Assembly (NCBI GenBank): GCA_037974965.1 | Contig: JBBPFI010000001.1 | Location: 1-64,000 of the forward strand | Direction: 5' to 3' | Length of the DNA stretch: 64,000 nucleotides | DNA from: Dacryopinax spathularia | Lineage: Eukaryota > Basidiomycota > Dacrymycetes > Dacrymycetales > Dacrymycetaceae | Shown: piece after piece, positions 1 through 13,582 of the stretch | How positions within the stretch are numbered: position 1 is the stretch's first letter | How the letters are laid out: each line of letters opens with the position of its first letter | Notes under the pieces: model-generated | Databases searched by the model: none | What the model was told of the DNA's origin: nothing | What the model saw: the letters and a program-made list of their open reading frames with translations, nothing else | Made by a program: the position numbers and the translations under genes

Positions 1-129
1 ACCCTAACCCTAACCCTAACCCTAACCCTAACCCTAACCCTAACCCTAACCCTAACCCTAACCCTAACCCTAACCCTAACCCTAACCCTAACCCTAACCC
101 TACCCTAACCCTAACCCTAACCCTAACCC
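1..129. repeat. Telomere repeat, chromosome end
   Basis: About 21 head-to-tail copies of CCCTAA start at the first base, so the C-rich strand reads inward as expected for a left chromosome end (G-strand repeat TTAGGG). One copy near 98-102 is shortened to CCCTA. The run ends at about 129, where unique coding sequence begins without a non-coding subtelomeric buffer. The shortened copy supplies the TAG stop codon of the adjacent gene. Confidence 0.98.
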
Positions 130-3100
130 AGACAGGTCGGACGAATCGCTGTCATGCGAGGAGTCATGTTCAGACTCACCCGCGGCCGTCCTCTTAGGGC
201 GTTTCGCTGCTGGACGCTGGCCGCTGGGGGATGCGTCATCGGCAGGTGCTATCGAGGTCTCGGAGAGCGTGTGCTTATGGCCTGCTTGGCTGGCAGGCGG
301 CACCGGGGCAGCTGTCGTATCAGCAGTCTCACCTTCTGCTGGCTGGTTGGTCGCACGCGCACGGCGGATCGTGCCTTTCTTCGGCAGTCGCATGGGCGGG
401 AGGGGCCCCTGCGAGGGCGCAGCGGTGGTCTGAGGCGGGCCACGTCGCTCCTTCTCCTTGTCATCCTCCAACACCGCTCGCGCAGTATTGAAGGATTGCT
501 TGCGAGCGAGCTGACATGCCCACGTTAGCCCTGCACAAACACTGAGAGACGCACTTACCCTTTGCAGCCCTTTCTCCAAGTCTTCCCGCCCTACCTCAGG
601 CCATATCTCCAGCAACGAACTCATATGGCCCAAGACCAAGTCTTCAAGCTTCACCGCCTCTGCCTTTACCTTTGCCTTCTCCTCTGCCCGCAGCGCTGTA
701 TCGTCCTCCTCCTCCTCCTCCTCTGCAATTGGCTCGGGAATTGGCTCACCAATCTTCCACTCCTCAGGCACGCTCTCAAAGACCGTCGGTCGCAGGCCGT
801 GGTTGATGCGATAGAGATGGGTGGCAGCGGCGGCTTGATCTTTCCAGGCCTGATCGATCGAGCGGAGAACACGGCGCCAGGCGGGATGGTAGTTGAGCTT
901 GCTGAACAAGAACTCGGACCGGAGGGCCACAGGCAGCCAGCGTTTCACACGCTCCCTGAACGTCCGCTTGCTGTTGTCGTCGGTTTGACCGGGCTTCGGC
1001 TTCAGGAGCGGCCAGCCCTCATCGAAGACAGTCTTGAACTTGGCCCAATCGGCAGGCTCGGCAGGCATGACGCGCGGCGGGTTCCGCAGGAAGTTCTTGC
1101 GGCAATACGCCCAGGCATAGTCGATCAGGCTGGTGAGGTGGTCGTTGACGTAGGCCTTCGAGAACGCCTCCACTTGTTCCGCGTACCGTGCCGTTACGTA
1201 AGCCAGCGTGCGCTTCATCTCCTGGAGGTGGTTCCAGGACGAGGGGAGGTACGGGTTCAGCCAGAGCATAAAAGGCTGCAGGAGGAGGAAATACTCGTCG
1301 TCCGTGATGCTGTCGAGCGAGTCCTTGCCAGTCTTCCGCATGACAAGTTGGGCAAGCACGGACTCAATCCGATGCTCGGCTTGGCTGCCAGGACCGTTGG
1401 TGATGTAGAACGGGTTGACGTACTGCCCAAGCTGCGAGAGATGAGTGAGAGCGTCCGTTAGCGAGCCAAAGTTGCACGTACCAACTGCAGCACATCATCA
1501 AACACCGCAAACTGCATCACGTCGTTGTAGAACGTTGCCGAGGTCAGGATCGCCACCCGAGGGTTTTCCTCCAGACGCCCACGCAGCCAGCGCATAAAGG
1601 GACGGGCGTGGGCCAGATGCTCCGCAGGGATCTTGTCCTGCGACTCCTTCGCCGCCAACGAGACCTGGCCCAGCCTGATCACCTCGCCGTTCTCATCCTT
1701 CTCATCCTCCATCGGTGCGTCTCCAGCCAGCAGCTTCTCGACCACGTTCACCATCGCGCTCTCCAACTCCTTGGCACCCACCGCTTCCTCCTCTTCCTCC
1801 TCCTCCTCGCCTTCATTCTCCTCCGTCTGCTTCGCCTTGCCCTTCCCCTTCCGCGAGCGCCTACCGCGCTTAATCGTAACTACACTAAGCTCTTCTTCTA
1901 TGGATGCTTGTAACGTAGCTAGAGAAACCAGACCATAACGCCGCGAAATCGCCTCCTGAATAAAGCACCATGCCGCCACCGGTTCCGAGTAGACCGTGTT
2001 CACCTTGGTCGTCTTAGGCTTACCAGTGAGGATAAGCCAATACTGAAGAATACCGTTCGTGATCGCAGTCCACAGGTGACGATCGGAGATCTCCGGATAG
2101 CCGGTATTGCGTTCGAGGCTCTCTCGAGAGAGCAAGACGTACGTGCGCTTCATCATATACCACCAACCCTATGTCTATATCAGCACCGCGGCTCTATTAG
2201 AGTCAATGAAAGAACTTACGTCAGCAAAGTGAGAGTCACGTGCACGGACGATCGGGGCCATGGCCATGTTGTGGAACTCCGAAATGCTGAAAAGCTGCTG
2301 GACGACCTTACGATAGCGCTTGTACTTGAAAGTACGGATGTTGGCCTGATCGTTGCTGAGCTCGACATAGGCCGTCAAGAGACGGGACGCTTCGTCAGCC
2401 TTCCAATCGACGTTCTCCATGACCGCCATGGCCGAATCCCACAGGTTCTTAGCGCTCGCAGGCTTACCGACATCACGGCGATTGCTCGCCAGCTTACGGT
2501 AGAGCTCGAGGCCAGGTCCAGATTCTTTCAACGCTGTTGCGCACATCAGTGGGTCAGTCACAGAGGCTGTAGAGGGCAGTACGTACAAGGCTTGTAGATC
2601 TGGACGATCCACCAAGGGACATTGTCGCCATCCCCATTCTCATCCGTCGCAAACAGATGGGCGTACTCGGGGTTGTGGCGATAACGCTCATAGAGCAGAC
2701 GCACCGCATGCGTGCGATGCTGTCCAGCAACGACCATTACCTTGGTCATATCGATGAAGATGACCTCACGCCACGTGTCGGGTTTCTTAAGGTCAACCTT
2801 GTTGCCGGTAATCTCACGGATGTTGGCGATATTGTCGACATCGGTGAGCAAGACGATCGGGTTGGGCGTGCGGCGGAGTTCGGTGGACATAGAGACCACA
2901 AGGGACTCTACGTGCTTCTCATCAAGAGCGCGACCAAACTGGCGCTCGTACTGAGGCTGAGGTTCGTCGTCAGCCGGAATGACCCAGCACGCTTCGCCGA
3001 CCATGAAGCTGGGAAGCATTGCAAAGAGATCCAAGGCCTCCCGCTCACTCTGAGAGGGCGCAAGCGACCTCTGAGAAGAGACGGTCAGCGACTGAGGCGT

Positions 3101-3163
3101 ACCGGTAGGCGTGCCCTGAGAGGCGACACCGCTCGATTGCTGCGAGTTGGCGTTTGACGACAT
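100..3163 (-). CDS. ParB/sulfiredoxin-like domain protein, 3' end in telomere
   Basis: Four exons (3163..2587, 2533..2220, 2168..1482, 1431..100) with GT..AG introns of 50-53 bp give 969 residues. Residues 72-160 look like a ParB/Srx fold: a conserved R-x-LDE-x-HV-x-SLVVSM stretch, a PIVLL strand, then VVAGQHR (144-150), which resembles the GHRR box of ParB and the DGQHR box of DndB-like proteins. The rest is unrecognised and mostly helical, with two acidic runs (poly-Glu) and a basic KRPKR nuclear-signal-like motif near the C-terminus. The last residues, a Leu-Gly repeat, are encoded by telomere repeats, so the original C-terminus was probably lost when the telomere was added. It is divergent from the 4223-8260 gene, with palindromes in the shared upstream region. 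DNA binding or nuclease activity is inference from the fold only. Confidence 0.72.
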
Positions 3164-3623
3164 TGCTGGTTAGGCGATATTCAAGAGACAAGATTCTGTG
3201 AGAGCGAGAGTCAGTGAATGCATGCGGGAAGAAGAACGTGAGGAAAAAAGAAATGCGGAAGTGCGAAAAATGAGCAAATACATGCGTTGCAGGCAATACG
3301 GCTTGCCGTAGAGCTGCGAACGCATGCAAAACAACAGTTACGCATGCCAGGCATCCGTACGGACCTGCGTACAGGCCGTAACGTGCCTGCGGGAAGCGTC
3401 ACAGCGCAATCGCACATGCGAAAAGCAAGAAAATGGCCAAACGAGGCCTGCGAACATGCCTCGCAGGCCTCGCAAGCCCAAATAAACGCCGTACAGGCGT
3501 CTGCGAGGGGTCCTAATGACTCCCCGATATGCGAAAACTACCTACGGATATACGCTAATAACTATTACTATTGAAAAGTAACGCGCGTACGCGAAAAGTG
3601 AAAAAACGAAAAAAAAATGCGAA

Positions 3624-3936
3624 CCCATCACGAGCTCGCGCGCGAGCTCGTGATGGTCACGTGACCTCCGGACGCGCCTTACCTGAGGTGGTGGTAAGGG
3701 AGAGAGAGGTGAAGGACCCCTAGAGGAAGAAAACGCGCGTTTAGGACGCGCGTTTGCTTCCGTTAGGGTTCGCACAGCCTCTCGAACCCATCACGAGCTC
3801 GCGCGCGAGCTCGTGATGGGTTCGTTTCGCTTTTTAACCCATCACGAGCTCGCGCGCGAGCTCGTGATGGGTTTTTTCGTTATTTCGAAAAAGCGAAACC
3901 AACCCATCACGAGCTCGCCTGCGAGCAGGTGATGGA
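3624..3936. repeat. Left palindrome cluster (4 copies)
   Basis: Four long palindromes lie in the 1.06-kb divergent gap between the genes starting at 3163 and 4223. Copies are at 3625-3656 (32 bp, perfect), 3783-3824 (42 bp, perfect), 3836-3873 (38 bp, perfect) and about 3901-3936 (imperfect). The common half-site is CCATCACGAGCTCGCG, joined at a CG|CG centre, with flanks CCC and AAC in the longer copies. The arms could form hairpins or be sites for a dimeric DNA-binding protein. The same half-site recurs at 8488-8684. The rest of 3164-4222 holds no convincing gene. Confidence 0.95.
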
Positions 3937-4222
3937 CGGTTCAATCGGGGGTGTTTAGACCTCCCGTTGTAACCCGTTACGGCCTCGTTCGCAAGCTGCG
4001 GGGCCGAAAAAGGTCTCATTTCAATTCAATTCATAACTGTACAACTGTGGATTGCTTCCCCGTGGAAGCTTTAATCGTCCCCGGACTCCCGGGTCTTCTC
4101 TTCTCTTCTCTCTCCCCAACCACCACCATCTCCCGTTAGCTAGCGTAGCAGTTTTAGATAGAGAAATTGAAAAAGCGGCCCATTCGTACTAACTTTTATT
4201 AACAGAAAACCTTTTCAAAAAA

Positions 4223-7200
4223 ATGTCAGAACCAGAATCGATCAGGTACGCATTCCCCGTCTTTTCTTGGACGCATACGCTAACACGTCTGACAGCGATA
4301 GCGATATGCGTCGTGCAGGCCTTCATCGTACCAACTCGTTTGGGAGCGATGTGCCTGACGACGGCCCTTTCGAAATGCCCGTTCATGGCGCAGCAGCCGA
4401 CTTAGGCGCAGACACGGTTGACGACAATCCTGAAGAACAGGCCAATACCGACTTCTTCAAGGACGCGAGCGGCATCTCGATCGCCACAACGGTGACGCCC
4501 GCATTCCTGCATGAAGGCAGGCGCGCATCCGAACGCCTGGCAGCAGGCGGCAACGGCATCCACGATGATGTCAATGCCGACATGTGCTATCTCCCGATCA
4601 AGGTGAATCTCCTCGATGACAACGAGCCGGCAGCGTACAAGGTCACAGAGTACGCCACGCTCGACTGGGGGACGCGTGACCTCTTTCTCGACTCGTTCGG
4701 TGCCATCTCTGAAGAGCCTGGCCTTGGCGTCCTTTTCCCCGGCGATACCCACTTCAGCTTCAACGAATATCTCACGCTCCATGCTGGCCGCTTCACCCGC
4801 ATGCTCTTCGACAAGCACGAGTTCATCGGCTTCCCATCCCGCCATCTTACCTTCTATCTCGGTGAATCGGAAGGACGGCACATCTGGCTTGTCTTCCGTG
4901 CCAAGCACAGGGAGCAGCGTTTGCAAGGCAATCACGACGGCAAGGAACGCTGGATCAGGCGCATGCGCTACTTCCGTGGCTTCCTCTGCTGGTGCTGTGC
5001 CCAGCTGCCAGGCAAGAACATCGTCTCCGAGAGCATGCTGCACTGGGGAGATGAAGATGTGTCCACGCTTGTGTACGTACCCCTCCGCATGCTTCCCGTA
5101 TCCCTGAATCGCTCGCTCACCATGGCCGCACAGGCACGGTCACGTCATCCTCTCACCGGATGAGGTGGAAGACCTGCACCGGATCATGACAACCAGCTAC
5201 GAAATCTTTGCAGGCCTTATGCAGCCCCTTGATCCATTCTTTCTCAACCACGAGCCCTTCTCGGTCACCCTCAAGTACGGCCAGGACAACCCGATCTCGG
5301 AGACCCGCACGGCATGGGACAACTTCAAGAAGAGGTGGGACGCCTTGTACAGGTTTGAGGCCATCGGCCGCTTTGTCTGTGCGCTCGCCATGGTCCAAAG
5401 GTCAGTACGCTCGCTCGCAAAGACATGACGCGCTGAGTCAGTGGCCCACAGAGTGAAAGATGAGGATGGGGAAGAGTGTGCGGTGCTCTGCGACTACAAC
5501 CGGATGAAGGCAGAGTTTCTCGGGAGGGAACGTGGAGGCCAGGGCGCAGCGTTCTATCTGCTCGGCTTCACCAAGGACGCGTGCAACATCCAGGCGAACA
5601 CCCTCCCAAGCTTTTTCGCCACCGTCCTCCAGCGCCTGAACCAACGGTATATGGTGCCGAGCGAAAACGAGCAAGGTGAGGAGATAGCGGGGCCTGACCC
5701 GTTTGAGTGCATCAAATGGCAGGGCTACTCGGCACAGAAGAAGGTCTTCCGGAACTCGACAGACGAGCACGAGATCAGTCTTGGTCAGGAGGCCGCTGCG
5801 TTGGGTGTCTGTGGCGTTGGGGGCGGGTTTGAACGCAAGGTGCATGAGATGATCGAGCGTCTCAATCGGCAGTCAAGCTTCGACAAGACCGCGACACGCA
5901 TCCGGCAAGGTGAGGGATCGCTCGGGATCCGCTCGGAGATGGAGCTCGTCATCCACCCAGACAGGCTTGCCCCTGAGCATCGTAGCGGAAGGTAAATCTC
6001 TTCCCTTTCCGCGCACGCATGGTGTGTTAACGGACCGATCTAGCTGGGTGGTCAGCAAGCTCCTCAAGCCGATGACAACGGTGTATTATTCGGGTCTGCC
6101 CTCAGCGCAGTTCCGGGCATCGCTGCTTGTGCTCAGGCCTTCCGTACGCTTCATGCAGCATCCAGCGCAACCTCTGACATCACGCACAGGTCTATCCGAA
6201 CCTGCTTCTGGACGCGGCATGGTTCTGGACGGTGAGAGCGCGCCGTGTGTGGAAGGATGCGATGACGATCACCAACAACGGGACACGTCCTTGTCCCTGG
6301 TATCTCATCGAGGGCATCGCAATCTGCCTCCGGAACATTGCGCTGGCCCAGACAGGGGACATGCGCACGATCTCAGGGCCTGTCTACCGTGCTGCGGGCC
6401 TGTGGTCTTCGATCCGTGAGAACGGTGTGCCGACCATGCTCAAGTCGTTCTGGGCGGGAGGGCCGCAAGGCCAGCTTGTGCCCAGCGCATGGCCACGGCC
6501 CATTCAGGGCGGGCTCCGTGCATCCGTAGCGGTAAGTGCGATCACGGCACACTTTGGTAAGGAGGCCGGCCTGGCCTATCGTCGCCGTTTTGAGCTCGAG
6601 TGGCGCCTCGACATGCTTGCAGAGCAAGGGAATGGCAGCGGCTCCGCCCTTCGCCAGGCAGCAGCGCAGCAGATCATCGAGGCGTACCGGCAGGAGATCC
6701 AGGAGAACGCCCTTTCAGCTGCAGGCCTGCTTCTGAGCACCAGTCGAATGTCGCTCTGGCGTGCCGGAGAACGCCATGCATTGGTCAGCCAGGTGATCGA
6801 CCGACGAGAGCGCGCCATCAACGAATGGAAGGCCGAAGGAATGCCCCTCGATGCCACCAACGGGTATACGTACATCACGCGCATGCTCGGCACAGAAGAC
6901 CTCGTCCCAGCATTCCCTCTCTCTGTCCAGCGTGCGACCATATCGACAGTGGACCTTGTCGATCTGATGCTGAAGATGGCGCGGGGGAAGAGGGCGATGG
7001 GATCTCCTTTCTTTGGTAAGCGCCGTATGCTCACCCTGTCCGTCCTGCAGACTGCGATCGGGCATTTGACCCGTGGCACGCCGGCCGAGCTGCACGAGCA
7101 AGTGATCGGCTGGTTACGGGACGCCATGTGCCATGTGCTCAGGGCATCAAGGCTGAACATTGTGCCTTGGGCTGGTCGGCGCGGTCTCTGGGCCAGTGCG

Positions 7201-8260
7201 CTTCACTGGATCCACGTGGTCGATGACAACCCCCGGCAGGCCCGGTCTGGCCGCTATGTGCCTGCGGATGAGGACGAGTACGTGACGATGCAGATCCAGG
7301 CTGAACGCGACCGTGTCAACCCCCGGCCGCATGCCTGGAAAGCTCAGCTCCCGCCAACGCTCTGGTCGATTCCAACCTTCCGCAGGGACCTGTCCGAGGA
7401 GATGAACAACGGCTTTGAAGAGCTCTGCAAGGGCGGGGGGCGTGGGGCGACAGGTGCGCAGTATCGACCGGCATTCGAGCACCTCCGTGCGCTCTTCAAG
7501 GAGCGGATCGAGACCGACCTGCACCAGTACATCCTATTCTGTGCCACGCTGCTCTGCAAGATCCACCCACGATACCGATACATGGCATCCAACCCAAACG
7601 CACGTCTCAACACGGTCGAGGATGCACGCAACGTGGTGAAGAACATGGTAATGCTGGTGCCAGAGCGTGCCGCAGGGACAACCCACGTGGGGATCGTGGC
7701 CGCCTCGTTCATCGCCTGGCTGATGTACATGCTCTACGATCAGCAGGAGGAGCTTGCGACACATTGGGGGGTGACAGATGCGATGATGAAGACAAAGACC
7801 TGTGAGTGTGACTGGATACGGGATGGATGCTATGCTAATGACCACAGCGAACCATGCCTTGCATTGGGGTCTGTTCGCATCCTGGGGCTTCTACACCGTC
7901 CTCAGCCCGCACAAGGATATGCTGGGTAAGCGTGGTCCACGCCAGCGCCAAACGAACGGCATCGAATACTGGCGAATGGCCAAGCATAGCCGGATCGAAG
8001 CGCTCTGGAGGGAGATCAAGGACTGCTGGGAACGAGGACAGCACAAAGAAGGGCTACGGCATATCTGGTCGGATGCAGACATTGCGCACTGGGAAGCTAC
8101 AGGTATGTTGCAGCGTCCCGCACAGCGCAATACGGGCGCAAGCCCGGACAAGAGGGCGACAGTGCAGCAACGGCATGCCCCGATGACGCAGGAGATGTTG
8201 CGTAACCTGACACGCAGCATGCACTCGTCCTGGCTCGAGCTGAACCCGCGTGGAGTCTAA
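4223..8260 (+). CDS. Unknown 1243-aa subtelomeric protein
   Basis: Seven exons (4223..4245, 4296..5072, 5134..5400, 5452..5991, 6044..6143, 6190..7801, 7848..8260), with introns of 46-61 bp that all restore frame, give 1243 residues. I recognise no domain. After the 8-residue first exon the N-terminal part is acidic; the remainder is rich in Trp, Arg and Leu and looks globular, with a patch around LNIVPWAGRRG and an aromatic HWGLFASWGFY segment near the C-terminal end. No signal peptide or clear membrane helix is visible. Seven phased introns and sustained coding bias over 3.7 kb argue for a functional gene. It sits between two palindrome clusters and is divergent from the ParB-like gene, so a shared role or mobile unit is possible. 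It could be an unknown recombinase-like or structural protein; I assign no function. Confidence 0.75.
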
Positions 8261-8487: not shown

Positions 8488-8684
8488 CCAACCCATCACG
8501 AGCTTGCAGGCGAGCTCGTGATGGGTTGGGCCGCTTTTTCGCTTAGCACAGCCCCTTCACGAGCTCGCGCGCGAGGAGGTGATGGGTTCGTAAGCGTTTT
8601 CCCATCACCTCCTCGCGCGCGAGCTCGTGATGGGTTCAAATGCGTGCCAACCCATCACGAGCTCGCCTGCGGGGAGGTGATGGG
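8488..8684. repeat. Right palindrome cluster (4 copies)
   Basis: Four copies of the same palindrome family lie in the convergent gap between the genes ending at 8260 and 8748. 8488-8529 is 42 bp with two mismatched pairs. 8556-8590 and 8601-8634 each join one normal half-site to a variant half-site (CATCACCTCCTCGCG). 8651-8684 is imperfect. Left and right clusters bracket the 4223-8260 gene. Confidence 0.93.
8557..8630. repeat. Perfect 30-bp inverted repeat with 14-bp loop
   Basis: Bases 8557-8586 and 8601-8630 are exact reverse complements, separated by 14 bp. Each arm is itself a near-palindrome with one normal and one variant half-site, so the two copies are mirror images of each other. 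The segment could fold as one long hairpin or as two small ones. It lies between two convergent genes and could also act as a transcription-end structure. Confidence 0.93.
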
Positions 8685-8747: not shown

Positions 8748-10589
8748 CTATCCGTACTCACCCATAGACCCCTGTAGGATGAGGTGTTTGAAGCGTGCGG
8801 TGACAGGCCCAATATTGCGAAGTGCGAAGAAGCCTCCAGACTGGGTCACGCATTCCATGATTAACCACCGCTCGATGGGAGTTGTGGCGGGACCGGCAGC
8901 AGTGTGGGCAGTGGAGATGATGGAGAACAGGAACTTGTAGAGCCAGGCGAAGAGGAAGCCGGGCTCCGCGGGCTCTGCGAGGGTTTCTTGCACTGTGGTC
9001 AACAGCCTAATTTGCGCTGTGGCGAGATGAAGTGGAAAGTCGATGGCAGGACTCGCTTGGCCATGTTGACGCAGACAGGCGATGAGAAAGTGGAAGATCA
9101 TGTCGCCGAGGCGGTGTTTCGACTGCTGCTGTTGATACGGACGATGGGGCGTGCCGGTTTCCCATGTCGTGGTGTCGTTGTTGGGGCAGACGAGGGGGTA
9201 CGTGGCGTCGAGTTGAGGTATTTGTTGGTCATGGATGGCGATGATAAACTCTCGGCAGGCCGCATGGAGGGGCGCATACTGCTGTTCATCGGCGGACAAA
9301 GGAGCATGGGCCAAGTTGTACAAATCCGTCAAGTCCAGATGCTCGAGCACTTCCGACCAGGACGTCAAAGCTTGGAAGCGGCTTAAAGTGCGGACATCGA
9401 TGGGATGTCCGACAAAGTCTGGACGCTCAACGGTCATTGTTTCAAGCTTGGTGACGAGGGCTGCCATGGCAGGGTTGTAATCTGCGGGGTTGCTTTCGGA
9501 GACTTGGAAGTAGCGGCTCCCCGTACGTCCGGGAATGTCGAAGAGTCTCTGGCATTGTACCGTATAAGACAGGGTGGACAGACGGCGTTCGCTATCGGCG
9601 CCCTTGATGTGATGGTCCTGGAGGTGCTTACGGATGGCTGTCTCAGACGCCCAGACTCGTGCACAATCGGGATGGCCTGACCCTACAGGTTTGCATTGAT
9701 CCGGCCGGCATCGCCAACCCTGTATGGGTCTGCGAAGGACCAGGGAGGTACTGAAAACGTCTGATGCGATATCCAGGTCGGCGTTGCAAAGCCCATGGAC
9801 ACTCGCGGCTGTCAAAAGGGCAGTGTCGTCCTTGTGGGGTGCGTGGAAACCGAATGCTTCGTGATGGCATGCACGGTAGTGCCTGTAGAGAGATTGGGGC
9901 TGAATTGCTTGGCCGCAGAGGGTGCAGACAGCGACGTTCCACGGCAGATGCCTCACATAATGGTGTGCGGAGAGGATAGCATCAGACCGGTCGACAGTAG
10001 TCGGTGTGATGGGTGCGGTGAGACCGATCTCTTGGAGGTCACGGTTGACGAGCGTATCATCTTCTTCAATGGGGCTATCGTGGGAAGAGGGAACCCTCTG
10101 TGGCTCTTCCTCGATGGGATCGTCGGCGTCGGGTGATGGCCCAGCAGGAGTGGTCGGAGTTTGTATGGGCGAATAGAAGAAGGGCTCGTTGGGGTTGCTT
10201 GCCAAGCTCATGTTGCCTTTGGAGCACCGTAAGGCGTGGGACTCGGCGTCTGTGAGGGAGTGAGTGTTCATCGCGTTTGAGTCCAGGTGCGTGCGCACCC
10301 TGTTGGTCATGGGTGTCGAGGTGACGTCCGAGCGCCCTCGGGTTCCGAGAGTGAAATTGGCATGCGTCAACGGGGCAGTCAAAGTATGCATCCACACGGT
10401 GGATGATGACATCGAGTTTGAGGAATGTCTTTTTGGTGGTTTTTTGGTGGTAGGTACGAACGTGCTCCTTGTGACCTGTTGGGTTCCCCCGCTTTTCCCC
10501 CGCTGAGGGTCCTCACGAAACCCGCAGTCAGGCCACTCGCAGAGACTGTTGGGCGGTGTTTCGTTGTCGGGCGGAGTGACGGAGGACAT
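8748..10589 (-). CDS. OrsD-like protein with two C2H2 zinc fingers
   Basis: Three exons (10589..10517, 10475..10299, 10249..8748), with introns of 41 and 49 bp, give 583 residues. Splicing restores two fingers that straddle reading frames: a first Cys/His group (CEWPDC ... EHVRTYH) and a clear second one with C-x4-C-x12-H-x3-H spacing (CPVDACQF ... RHLDTH). A Ser/Pro/Glu-rich linker follows, then a region with paired Cys/His (VCTLCGQAI, HYRACHHEAF, RVWASETAIRKHLQDHH) typical of the fungal OrsD family (DUF3505). In some fungi this domain is joined to RecQ-like subtelomeric helicases. No helicase motifs are visible here and the frame stops just before the right palindrome cluster, so this may be a stand-alone form or a truncated one. 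Likely nuclear and DNA-associated by family; the role is unknown. Confidence 0.7.
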   Translation of the reverse strand: MSSVTPPDNETPPNSLCEWPDCGFREDPQRGKSGGTQQVTRSTFVPTTKKPPKRHSSNSMSSSTVWMHTLTAPLTHANFTLGTRGRSDVTSTPMTNRVRTHLDSNAMNTHSLTDAESHALRCSKGNMSLASNPNEPFFYSPIQTPTTPAGPSPDADDPIEEEPQRVPSSHDSPIEEDDTLVNRDLQEIGLTAPITPTTVDRSDAILSAHHYVRHLPWNVAVCTLCGQAIQPQSLYRHYRACHHEAFGFHAPHKDDTALLTAASVHGLCNADLDIASDVFSTSLVLRRPIQGWRCRPDQCKPVGSGHPDCARVWASETAIRKHLQDHHIKGADSERRLSTLSYTVQCQRLFDIPGRTGSRYFQVSESNPADYNPAMAALVTKLETMTVERPDFVGHPIDVRTLSRFQALTSWSEVLEHLDLTDLYNLAHAPLSADEQQYAPLHAACREFIIAIHDQQIPQLDATYPLVCPNNDTTTWETGTPHRPYQQQQSKHRLGDMIFHFLIACLRQHGQASPAIDFPLHLATAQIRLLTTVQETLAEPAEPGFLFAWLYKFLFSIISTAHTAAGPATTPIERWLIMECVTQSGGFFALRNIGPVTARFKHLILQGSMGEYG

Positions 10590-13387: not shown

Positions 13388-13582
13388 GCGGTGGGCCTGC
13401 GGCCCACCGCTAGGGTTACAACAACCCTAACGGGGTTACAACAACCCTAACGGGGTTACAACAACCCTAACGGGGTTACAACAACCCTAACGGGGTTACA
13501 ACAACCCTAACGGGGTTACAACAACCCTAACGGGGTTACAACAACCCTAACGGGGTTACAACAGCTCGGTGCCTTCGGCACC
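13388..13582. repeat. 20-bp tandem array between two hairpins
   Basis: From about 13413 to 13563 the unit AGGGTTACAACAACCCTAAC (with CGG spacing) repeats about 7.5 times with no visible change. Each unit carries AGGGTT and AACCCT facing each other, so the telomere motif is present in both orientations. The left side is a 10-bp-arm hairpin (13388-13397 with 13401-13410); the right side is a 6-bp-arm hairpin (13568-13573 with 13577-13582). The array lies at the border between the subtelomeric genes and the hydrolase cluster. The next 460 bases (13583-14047) show no gene. Confidence 0.95.

Follow-up and report, generated by a model that had tools for sequence, protein, structure and literature searches.

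Arrays of telomeric retrotransposons have a single polarity and are truncated distally and, to our knowledge, every mobile element that forms chromosome ends is reverse-transcribing. Helitrons are inserted at AT, have a CTRR 3' end and carry inverted repeats near this end. Here we analyze the first 64,000 nucleotides (the window) of contig JBBPFI010000001.1 from the basidiomycete Dacryopinax spathularia (GCA_037974965.1; 29.2 Mb in 24 contigs, named C1 to C22 etc.). TTAGGG telomeres, short introns and OrsD/helicase-type genes in the subtelomeres would also suggest a fungus. The window begins with a telomere, which is directly joined to a gene for a ParB-like protein (ParB1). This gene, a divergent partner gene (PG1) and two clusters of palindromes probably make up the distal portion of a mobile element by which chromosome ends are built.

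Two further systems are relevant for comparison. In the accessible parts of the published accounts, DndB is assigned to the ParB superfamily, which has nucleases and NTPases among its members (PMC10853773), and is described as binding two palindromes in its own promoter, one with a footprint of 33 nt, and as regulating its own gene (PMC4507180). The corresponding parts of other papers describe telomere-linked RecQ-type helicase genes (TLH) as subtelomeric, multicopy and adjoining telomeres, as in Agaricus bisporus (PMC7473861), and report elements at chromosome ends, of which FoTeRs co-localise with telomere-linked helicases (PMC12857005; PMC7367193; PMC5537684).

In what we call family 1, a telomere or 322-bp array is followed by the ParB-like gene (minus strand), palindrome cluster A, PG (plus strand), palindrome cluster B and a sharp right end (Table 1). 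The original prediction had described a terminal gene with three perfect palindromes and one imperfect copy upstream of it. This description was borne out; sites 1 to 3 of cluster A are all of the perfect palindromes of at least 18 bp in the 64 kb, while 20 mononucleotide shuffles of the window (the type of shuffle control used throughout) gave a mean of 0.35 and a maximum of 1. The cluster stands as predicted, but the prediction knew of only one; the second lies on the other side of PG1.

Table 1. Features of the element and its target in the window.
Feature	Position	Strand	Description
Telomere	1..128		20 CCCTAA hexamers in arrays 2-97 and 103-126, directly joined to ParB1 coding sequence
ParB1 (DGQHR/ParB-like gene)	100..3163	-	C-terminus cut by telomere; splice model; copies in C6 and C17
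Putative DGQHR/DndB/ParB-like domain of ParB1	2588..2980	-	approx. residues 62-190; GQHR box; profile matches
Palindrome cluster A, site 1	3625..3656		perfect, 32 bp
Palindrome cluster A, site 2	3783..3824		perfect, 42 bp
Palindrome cluster A, site 3	3836..3873		perfect, 38 bp
Palindrome cluster A, site 4	3904..3935		imperfect, 3/16 pairs broken
PG1 (partner gene)	4223..8260	+	1243 aa, 7 exons, divergent from ParB1, between clusters A and B
Palindrome cluster B	8493..8683		four imperfect sites: 8493-8524, 8554-8585, 8602-8633, 8652-8683
Right end R1 of element	8757..8780	+	ends ...CTGTAGG before shared AT
Target remnant	8781..10589	-	OrsD-end fragment (N-terminal, C2H2-like) of helicase-type subtelomeric gene, cut at junction

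The right ends are sharp boundaries. They terminate in ...CCCATAGACCCCTGTAGG (family 1, R1), ...CCTCAAAGGGGTATAG (family 2, R2) and ...AATATACCTATAG (family 3, R3), with TGTAGG, TATAG and TATAG, respectively, as the last bases; AT follows and then the sequences differ. A genome-wide pattern search found 31 R1 and 15 R2 sites. We obtained 40 distinct flanks, namely 21 from R1 (24 of the 31 sites were read), 15 from R2 (all 15 sites, two of them alike) and 4 from R3, and all consist of AT in varied, non-telomeric sequence. A relative of the target without an insertion has AT directly before the junction in 10 of 11 cases; the flanks on C11R and C13L were left out of this count, as their relatives matched only further in. 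In one of the ten, inside PG1 on C9, the first base of the flank differs from the relative; in another, C9L, the relative is 92.5% identical. When the far side of the contig is taken as the centromere side, 30/31 R1 and 15/15 R2 sites face the centromere. No mapped right end is more than 55 kb away from a contig end, apart from two on C6 at 135 kb.

The target in the window is cut at the junction. The remnant beyond R1 gave an OrsD match (E=5e-4, below the cut-off), and its relative on C6 (L040, from C6:1798500) has DEAD and Helicase_C matches in a neighbouring frame, a composition like that of TLH genes, the two frames not being joined into one model. The similarity between the two (25.6%) ends at window position 8778, at the R1 junction, and a search of the window with the C6 helicase frame found no match to the helicase half. 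Loss of the distal half of the target is as expected if the element replaces the end, but later breakage at the telomere could also have removed it. Further into the window, positions 13413-13563 hold a short perfect tandem repeat, whose self-match offsets of 40, 60, 80 and 100 bp suggest a 20-bp unit.

Chromosome ends in this genome include nested, head-to-tail, distally truncated copies, as in arrays of telomeric retrotransposons. An example is the first 25.4 kb of C17, where six right ends of a single polarity follow each other in the order R3, R1, R1, R2, R3, R3. The first four junctions are, in turn, into PG1, a 322-bp array, family-2 sequence that lies upstream of PG2, and PG3. Elements often have their distal part cut off, either by a telomere or by another element's right end. 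Telomere arrays were present on 25 of the 45 contig ends examined (600 bp each; 48 ends in total), and at 7 of these 25 the telomere abuts coding sequence of a ParB-like gene or a PG: ParB at C1L and C16L, PG1 at C5L, C7R and C14R, PG3 at C12L, and at C8L a further PG with 63% identity to PG1. The abutting PG genes read toward the centromere (5/5) and the ParB genes toward the telomere (2/2). The first 600 bp of the remaining 18 telomere-bearing ends had no match to the reference proteins.

The palindromes accompany both the ParB-like genes and the right ends. There are 14 ParB-like loci in the genome, 13 found by search and one by reading C22, and these represent 10 distinct genes once identical or nearly identical copies (ParB1 on C17 and C6; ParB3 on C21 and C5) are counted once. 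A 32-bp near-palindrome with at most 3 of 16 pairs broken occurs within 900 bp upstream of all seven distinct genes that are element-borne or subtelomeric (ParB1, 4 sites; ParB16, 1; ParB22a, 3; ParB22b, 1; ParB22c, 3; ParB3, 1; C6b, 2). The 32-bp criterion was picked after the first families had been seen, and the start sites of ParB22b, C6b, C2a and C2b are uncertain, the first methionine or the start of the open reading frame (ORF) having been taken. Only sites with up to 3 broken pairs were counted because, if as many as 5 are allowed, shuffles yield about one 32-bp site at each locus. None of the three internal genes (C9, C2a, C2b) has a site at this threshold, and C9 has one with 4 broken pairs; 55 kb of the same window hold no site at up to 3 and three at up to 4 broken pairs. 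This stretch includes the region upstream of the OrsD-type ORF, and as no site at up to 3 broken pairs occurs in it we rejected the idea that the palindromes are a general promoter feature. These data, our strongest result, support the predicted association of gene and palindromes, which extends over five palindrome sequences, and the same seven-of-seven pairing makes the guess of a selfish element look right. The internal genes (C2:1115349, C2:2532236, C9:439528) have a degenerate box (AGSTRIKA, SGATQIKA), and the C9 and C2a loci have weak inverted motifs in common (ATCAACA...TTGATTTT).

The five palindrome sequences are unrelated, with half-sites CCATCACGAGCTCGCG, CCGTTAGAATACGTCG, AGTGGTTTCGTTCTGG, GGTGGGACGACGCACA and TGTTTGAACA-N12-TGTTCAAACA. 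Length and position of the palindromes are thus conserved and their sequence is not, a pattern that co-evolution of a protein with its site would predict. The family-1 pattern has 67 sites in the genome within 3 mismatches; the reversed pattern has none. Among the 50 sites listed, 42 lie within 400 bp of an R1 right end, and the remaining 8 belong to cluster A upstream of the three ParB1 copies. The family-1 palindromes hence track the element's right end more than they do the ParB gene. Palindromes without the gene, which the prediction had regarded as evidence against a link, do occur widely, but they stand beside right ends of the same element. In families 1 to 3 the palindromes are about 75-290 bp from the right end; as they are internal to this sharp end, we rejected the view that they are the ends of a simple inverted-repeat transposon.

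ParB1 looks like a real gene from its splice model and its substitution pattern. The model has five exons (3163-2587, 2533-2220, 2168-1482, 1431-559 and 510 to the telomere), separated by four GT-AG introns of 48-53 nt, and encodes 953 residues ending in ...DLSGLGLGLGLG, the last of which are translated from telomere repeats. Exon 1 has 98-100% identity to the copies on C6 and C17, and the ratio of nonsynonymous to synonymous differences (pN/pS) between the window and the C17 copy is 0.06 (23 differences). A stretch on C17 with 98.8% identity extends the reading frame past the position at which the window copy is interrupted by the telomere; judged from this comparison, ParB1 in the window is a truncated gene, without its natural end there. 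An independent parallel exists on C16, where a second ParB-like gene (39% to ParB1 over the domain) also runs into the telomere. The interpretation of ParB1 as a host telomere gene was rejected, because the telomere cuts the gene and C17 holds more of it.

Next we asked to which protein family the ParB1 domain belongs. It was matched by DGQHR in NCBIfam (TIGR03187; E=0.0023, 17.7 bits against the required 58.85), by DndB in Pfam (PF14072; E=0.13-0.2, 11.1-11.8 bits against the required 29.1) and by the ParB-like PHROG 1033 (E=0.059-0.12). In each of these libraries the match is the only one for the domain, and all three point to the same superfamily over the same residues; the NCBIfam and Pfam matches are both under the curated cut-offs. 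The fold named in the original prediction is only suggested by the DGQHR and DndB matches; these remain below cut-off and the profiles of ParB_N (PF02195) and DndB found nothing in the genome at E<=10. In the control searches ParB_N was found in 11 of 14 genomes, in 9 of them above the cut-off, and DndB in 2 of 14. A fourth library, PADLOC, matched ParB1 to PprRE (E=0.034) and another ParB-like member to PycC (E=0.0062); both were set aside because they disagree with each other and with the other libraries. A single-sequence AlphaFold prediction of the domain (window 2588-3046, no alignment used) had a pLDDT of 37. Sequence searches of the PDB with the domain and with PG gave no relevant match, nor did tblastn against phages or a search of viral contigs with the PG alignment and ParB1 give any match. 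Two E=3 plasmid matches of the C16 domain to one ParA-annotated gene, which adjoins a pilus ATPase gene, were taken as chance. With the chance matches of other ParB-like members weighed in, it is rather more probable than otherwise that the ParB1 domain is a member of the ParB/DndB superfamily. As an analogy, DndB is the nearest tested precedent for an upstream array of 32-bp palindromes, and we infer from it that the ParB-like protein binds the palindromes.

PG1 is of no known family and has no Pfam match at E<=5. It aligns nearly over the full length with PG2 and PG16 (398 of 1243 positions identical in all three), with 34-44% identity to PG2 over four matched stretches and 42-54% to PG16. 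Pfam gave one match at chance level among the three members, DUF3179 with E=0.071 in one of them, and an earlier Pfam scan of the ORFs in the window had given NMB0537_N (E=0.17). Neither a ParA-like nor a helicase match was found for PG1. A single-sequence AlphaFold prediction of exon 4 (window 5453-5989) had a pLDDT of 37. The pN/pS between the window and the C17 copy is 0.14 (38 differences). PG copies keep their introns, with uninterrupted identity of 98-99%; retention of introns in both genes speaks against an RNA intermediate.

The other families have the same parts in different states of completeness. Families 1 and 2 include ParB-like genes and PG as well as palindromes, and their right ends are mapped. 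In family 3, PG3 occurs together with palindromes and right ends, and the link to ParB3 is through palindromes that are 6-9 of 32 bases apart. Family 4, on C16, consists of ParB16, PG16 and its own palindrome array, and family 5 of a single ParB-like gene and its palindromes together with a PG-like match located at the same end of the contig. Right ends were mapped genome-wide for families 1 and 2; those of family 3 come from the loci read, and families 4 and 5 are without mapped right ends. The fullest distal part is on C22, where a telomere, the 322-bp array, three ParB-like genes with palindromes and PG2 follow up to the contig end. In two families, the tandem array (C17, L026 4746-7576; C22:208-4693) is found on that side of the ParB-like genes which faces the telomere, and its shifted copies on C17 are about 75-88% identical. 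Because it is placed on C17 as on C22, the element's natural left side may consist of array and telomere. On C16, family-4 palindromes (L031 1387-1418 and 6342-6632) are found beside a decayed family-1 right end at about 7357-7508.

In the most economical model of these observations, the right end would be joined to an AT close to the end of a chromosome by an enzyme of the element, most likely PG. The palindromes near the right end would be the recognition site of the end-joining complex, and the ParB-like protein would perhaps sit on cluster B and assist PG. The distal part of the target would be lost and the new copy would become the chromosome end, with the genes of the element outermost. 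Such an end could later erode and be recapped by telomerase, which would leave a truncated PG or ParB at the telomere. The 32-bp palindromes would be binding sites for a protein of the element, the DGQHR/ParB-like one being the most likely candidate. Cluster A, placed between the divergent genes, would likely be a regulatory site, at which the ParB-like protein could control the divergent promoter in the manner of DndB. Taken one step further, the element would belong to a new eukaryotic class without a reverse transcriptase (RT), a telomere-bearing segment with a ParB/DndB protein and cognate palindromes, whose AT-joined end replaces the distal arm, so that the end sequence would be determined by the element and not by telomerase alone. 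On this reading, the element might also exist as a free linear molecule capped by telomeres and maintained with the help of its palindrome arrays and ParB-like proteins. We propose this class tentatively and give it somewhat less than an even chance.

Several results weigh against the reading as an end-building element. PG has no relevant match in Pfam or the PDB and no catalytic motif was recognised in it; a simple motif scan of PG1, PG2 and PG16 found no conserved RT, HUH or tyrosine-recombinase pattern. A DndB/DGQHR-type match is absent in 8 of 9 aligned ParB-like members, each model matching one of the nine, and other members have chance matches of similar size (SLFN-g3 helicase, E=0.011; PycC, E=0.0062). 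On C6, PG1 has a pN/pS of 0.21 and one in-frame stop, the truncated ParB1 fragment has a pN/pS of 0.49 (16 differences), and, in the copy situated about 130 kb from the contig end, a break within ParB1 leads into unrelated DNA, with no telomere array present. The exceptional target at C6L has GT instead of AT in the three relatives examined (85-91% identical over 68-81 bp), and PG of the C16 family is oriented opposite to that of family 1. No sharp left end was found; the target may really lose its distal part, or the element's left end may simply have eroded. The three ParB-like proteins on C22, with 15-31% identity in the domain, share one palindrome sequence; the palindrome thus follows the element and not clearly the ParB sequence, and PG could be the binder. 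Finally, one of the 46 right ends, on C3 at 104 bp from the contig end, has the opposite polarity. It shares its junction with three other C3 copies and is possibly a fold-back or an assembly artefact.

This inverted copy occupies the last bases of the contig (C3:2613557-2613975) and is the only opposite-polarity right end. The C3 copies that were read (L011, L012 and L010, the latter at C3:2577506) have a distally truncated PG1 and the same AT junction, as if amplified by recombination, and at C3:2597261-2603740 the family-1 palindromes are spaced 3145 bp apart.

The alternative closest to an end-building element is an ordinary DNA transposon of the cut-and-paste or rolling-circle type that prefers subtelomeres and owes its polarity and missing left ends to erosion, selection and copying from one chromosome end to another. 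Its anatomy is that of the reading which we prefer and the difference lies in the last step, so that the chances of the two are not exclusive; we consider it possible, yet clearly the less likely of the two. The AT target, the position of the palindromes near the right ends and the retained introns of PG are all in line with such a transposon. It does not readily account for the polarity that 45/46 right ends share while having 36 different R1/R2 flanks; none of the loci read showed a copy flanked by target on both sides, and the right ends lack a CTRR finish and PG a conserved HUH motif. A telomeric retroelement of the HeT-A, MoTeR or Terminon type, with a diverged RT hidden in PG, would be expected to give the polarity, nesting and distal truncation that we see. 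It is nevertheless very unlikely: Pfam revealed no RT family at E<=5 in the whole of PG1 or in the N-terminal halves of PG2 and PG16, the three aligned PG proteins have no conserved xDD motif, introns are kept on both strands, and the targets are AT in varied sequence and not telomere repeats.

The palindromes could instead be mere promoter operators of a subtelomeric gene family autoregulated by DGQHR proteins and spread by subtelomere recombination without any element enzyme. Their presence upstream of all seven ParB-like genes and the DndB precedent, as far as the available part of that paper describes it (PMC4507180), agree with this explanation. We judge it unlikely, because most of the listed family-1 palindromes (42 of 50; 67 in total) are located 3' of PG and no more than 400 bp from a right end, and because recombination alone leaves unexplained how one precise end is joined to 40 different flanks. 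Least probable, with hardly any weight in our view, is a segregation or end-protection system like ParB-parS. A ParB-like domain does adjoin palindrome arrays and these arrays are near chromosome ends; however, there is no ParB_N match, PG1 has no ParA-like match, and most family-1 palindromes are beside right ends rather than beside a ParB gene. The role in ParB-type segregation or spreading that the original prediction had envisaged found no support.

If an end-building element of this kind is confirmed, construction of ends by a DNA route would be a new mechanism of end maintenance and exchange, and a protein family known from bacterial plasmid partition and from control of DNA modification would be at work on chromosome ends. 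The element could help to explain the rapid turnover of subtelomeres. The families also provide five natural protein-site pairs with which sequence-specific recognition by an uncharacterised protein family can be tested.

In the literature surveyed, by titles and the beginnings of abstracts, no fungal ParB-palindrome element or anything similar is described. The word palindrome is not used in the available parts of the paper on chromosome ends of Agaricus bisporus (PMC7473861) and of a fungal telomere review; an apparent 'ParB' in a Microbotryum paper is a footnote mark in a table and was rejected. Provisionally, the element class looks new, being set apart from known elements as these are described in the literature, and it may be known under another name.

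Individual systems compare as follows. With bacterial ParB-parS the locus has in common a candidate DNA-binding protein that adjoins palindromic sites; it differs in having no ParB_N match, no visible ParA, 32-bp sites that vary between families and no evidence of segregation. DndB/DGQHR proteins resemble ParB1 in the GQHR box and in weak matches over the same residues, and the available part of the DndB report describes palindromes bound upstream of its own gene (PMC4507180). In contrast, ParB1 is eukaryotic, has introns, comprises about 950 residues or more and scores far below the cut-offs; no Dnd gene was noticed nearby, although no search was aimed at Dnd genes. TLH genes differ from PG and ParB1, which have no helicase match; here a gene of roughly the TLH type is the target. 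The likeness to Helitrons lies in the AT target (10/11) and in inverted repeats near the 3' end, whereas no Rep (HUH) or helicase protein is recognised in PG and there is no CTRR end. MoTeR/FoTeR and the Drosophila elements HeT-A/TART are likewise elements of chromosome ends with uniform polarity, distal truncation and nested arrays. Compared with them, the element described here has no RT that was found, keeps its introns, and combines two divergent genes with palindrome arrays and AT targets outside the telomere repeats.

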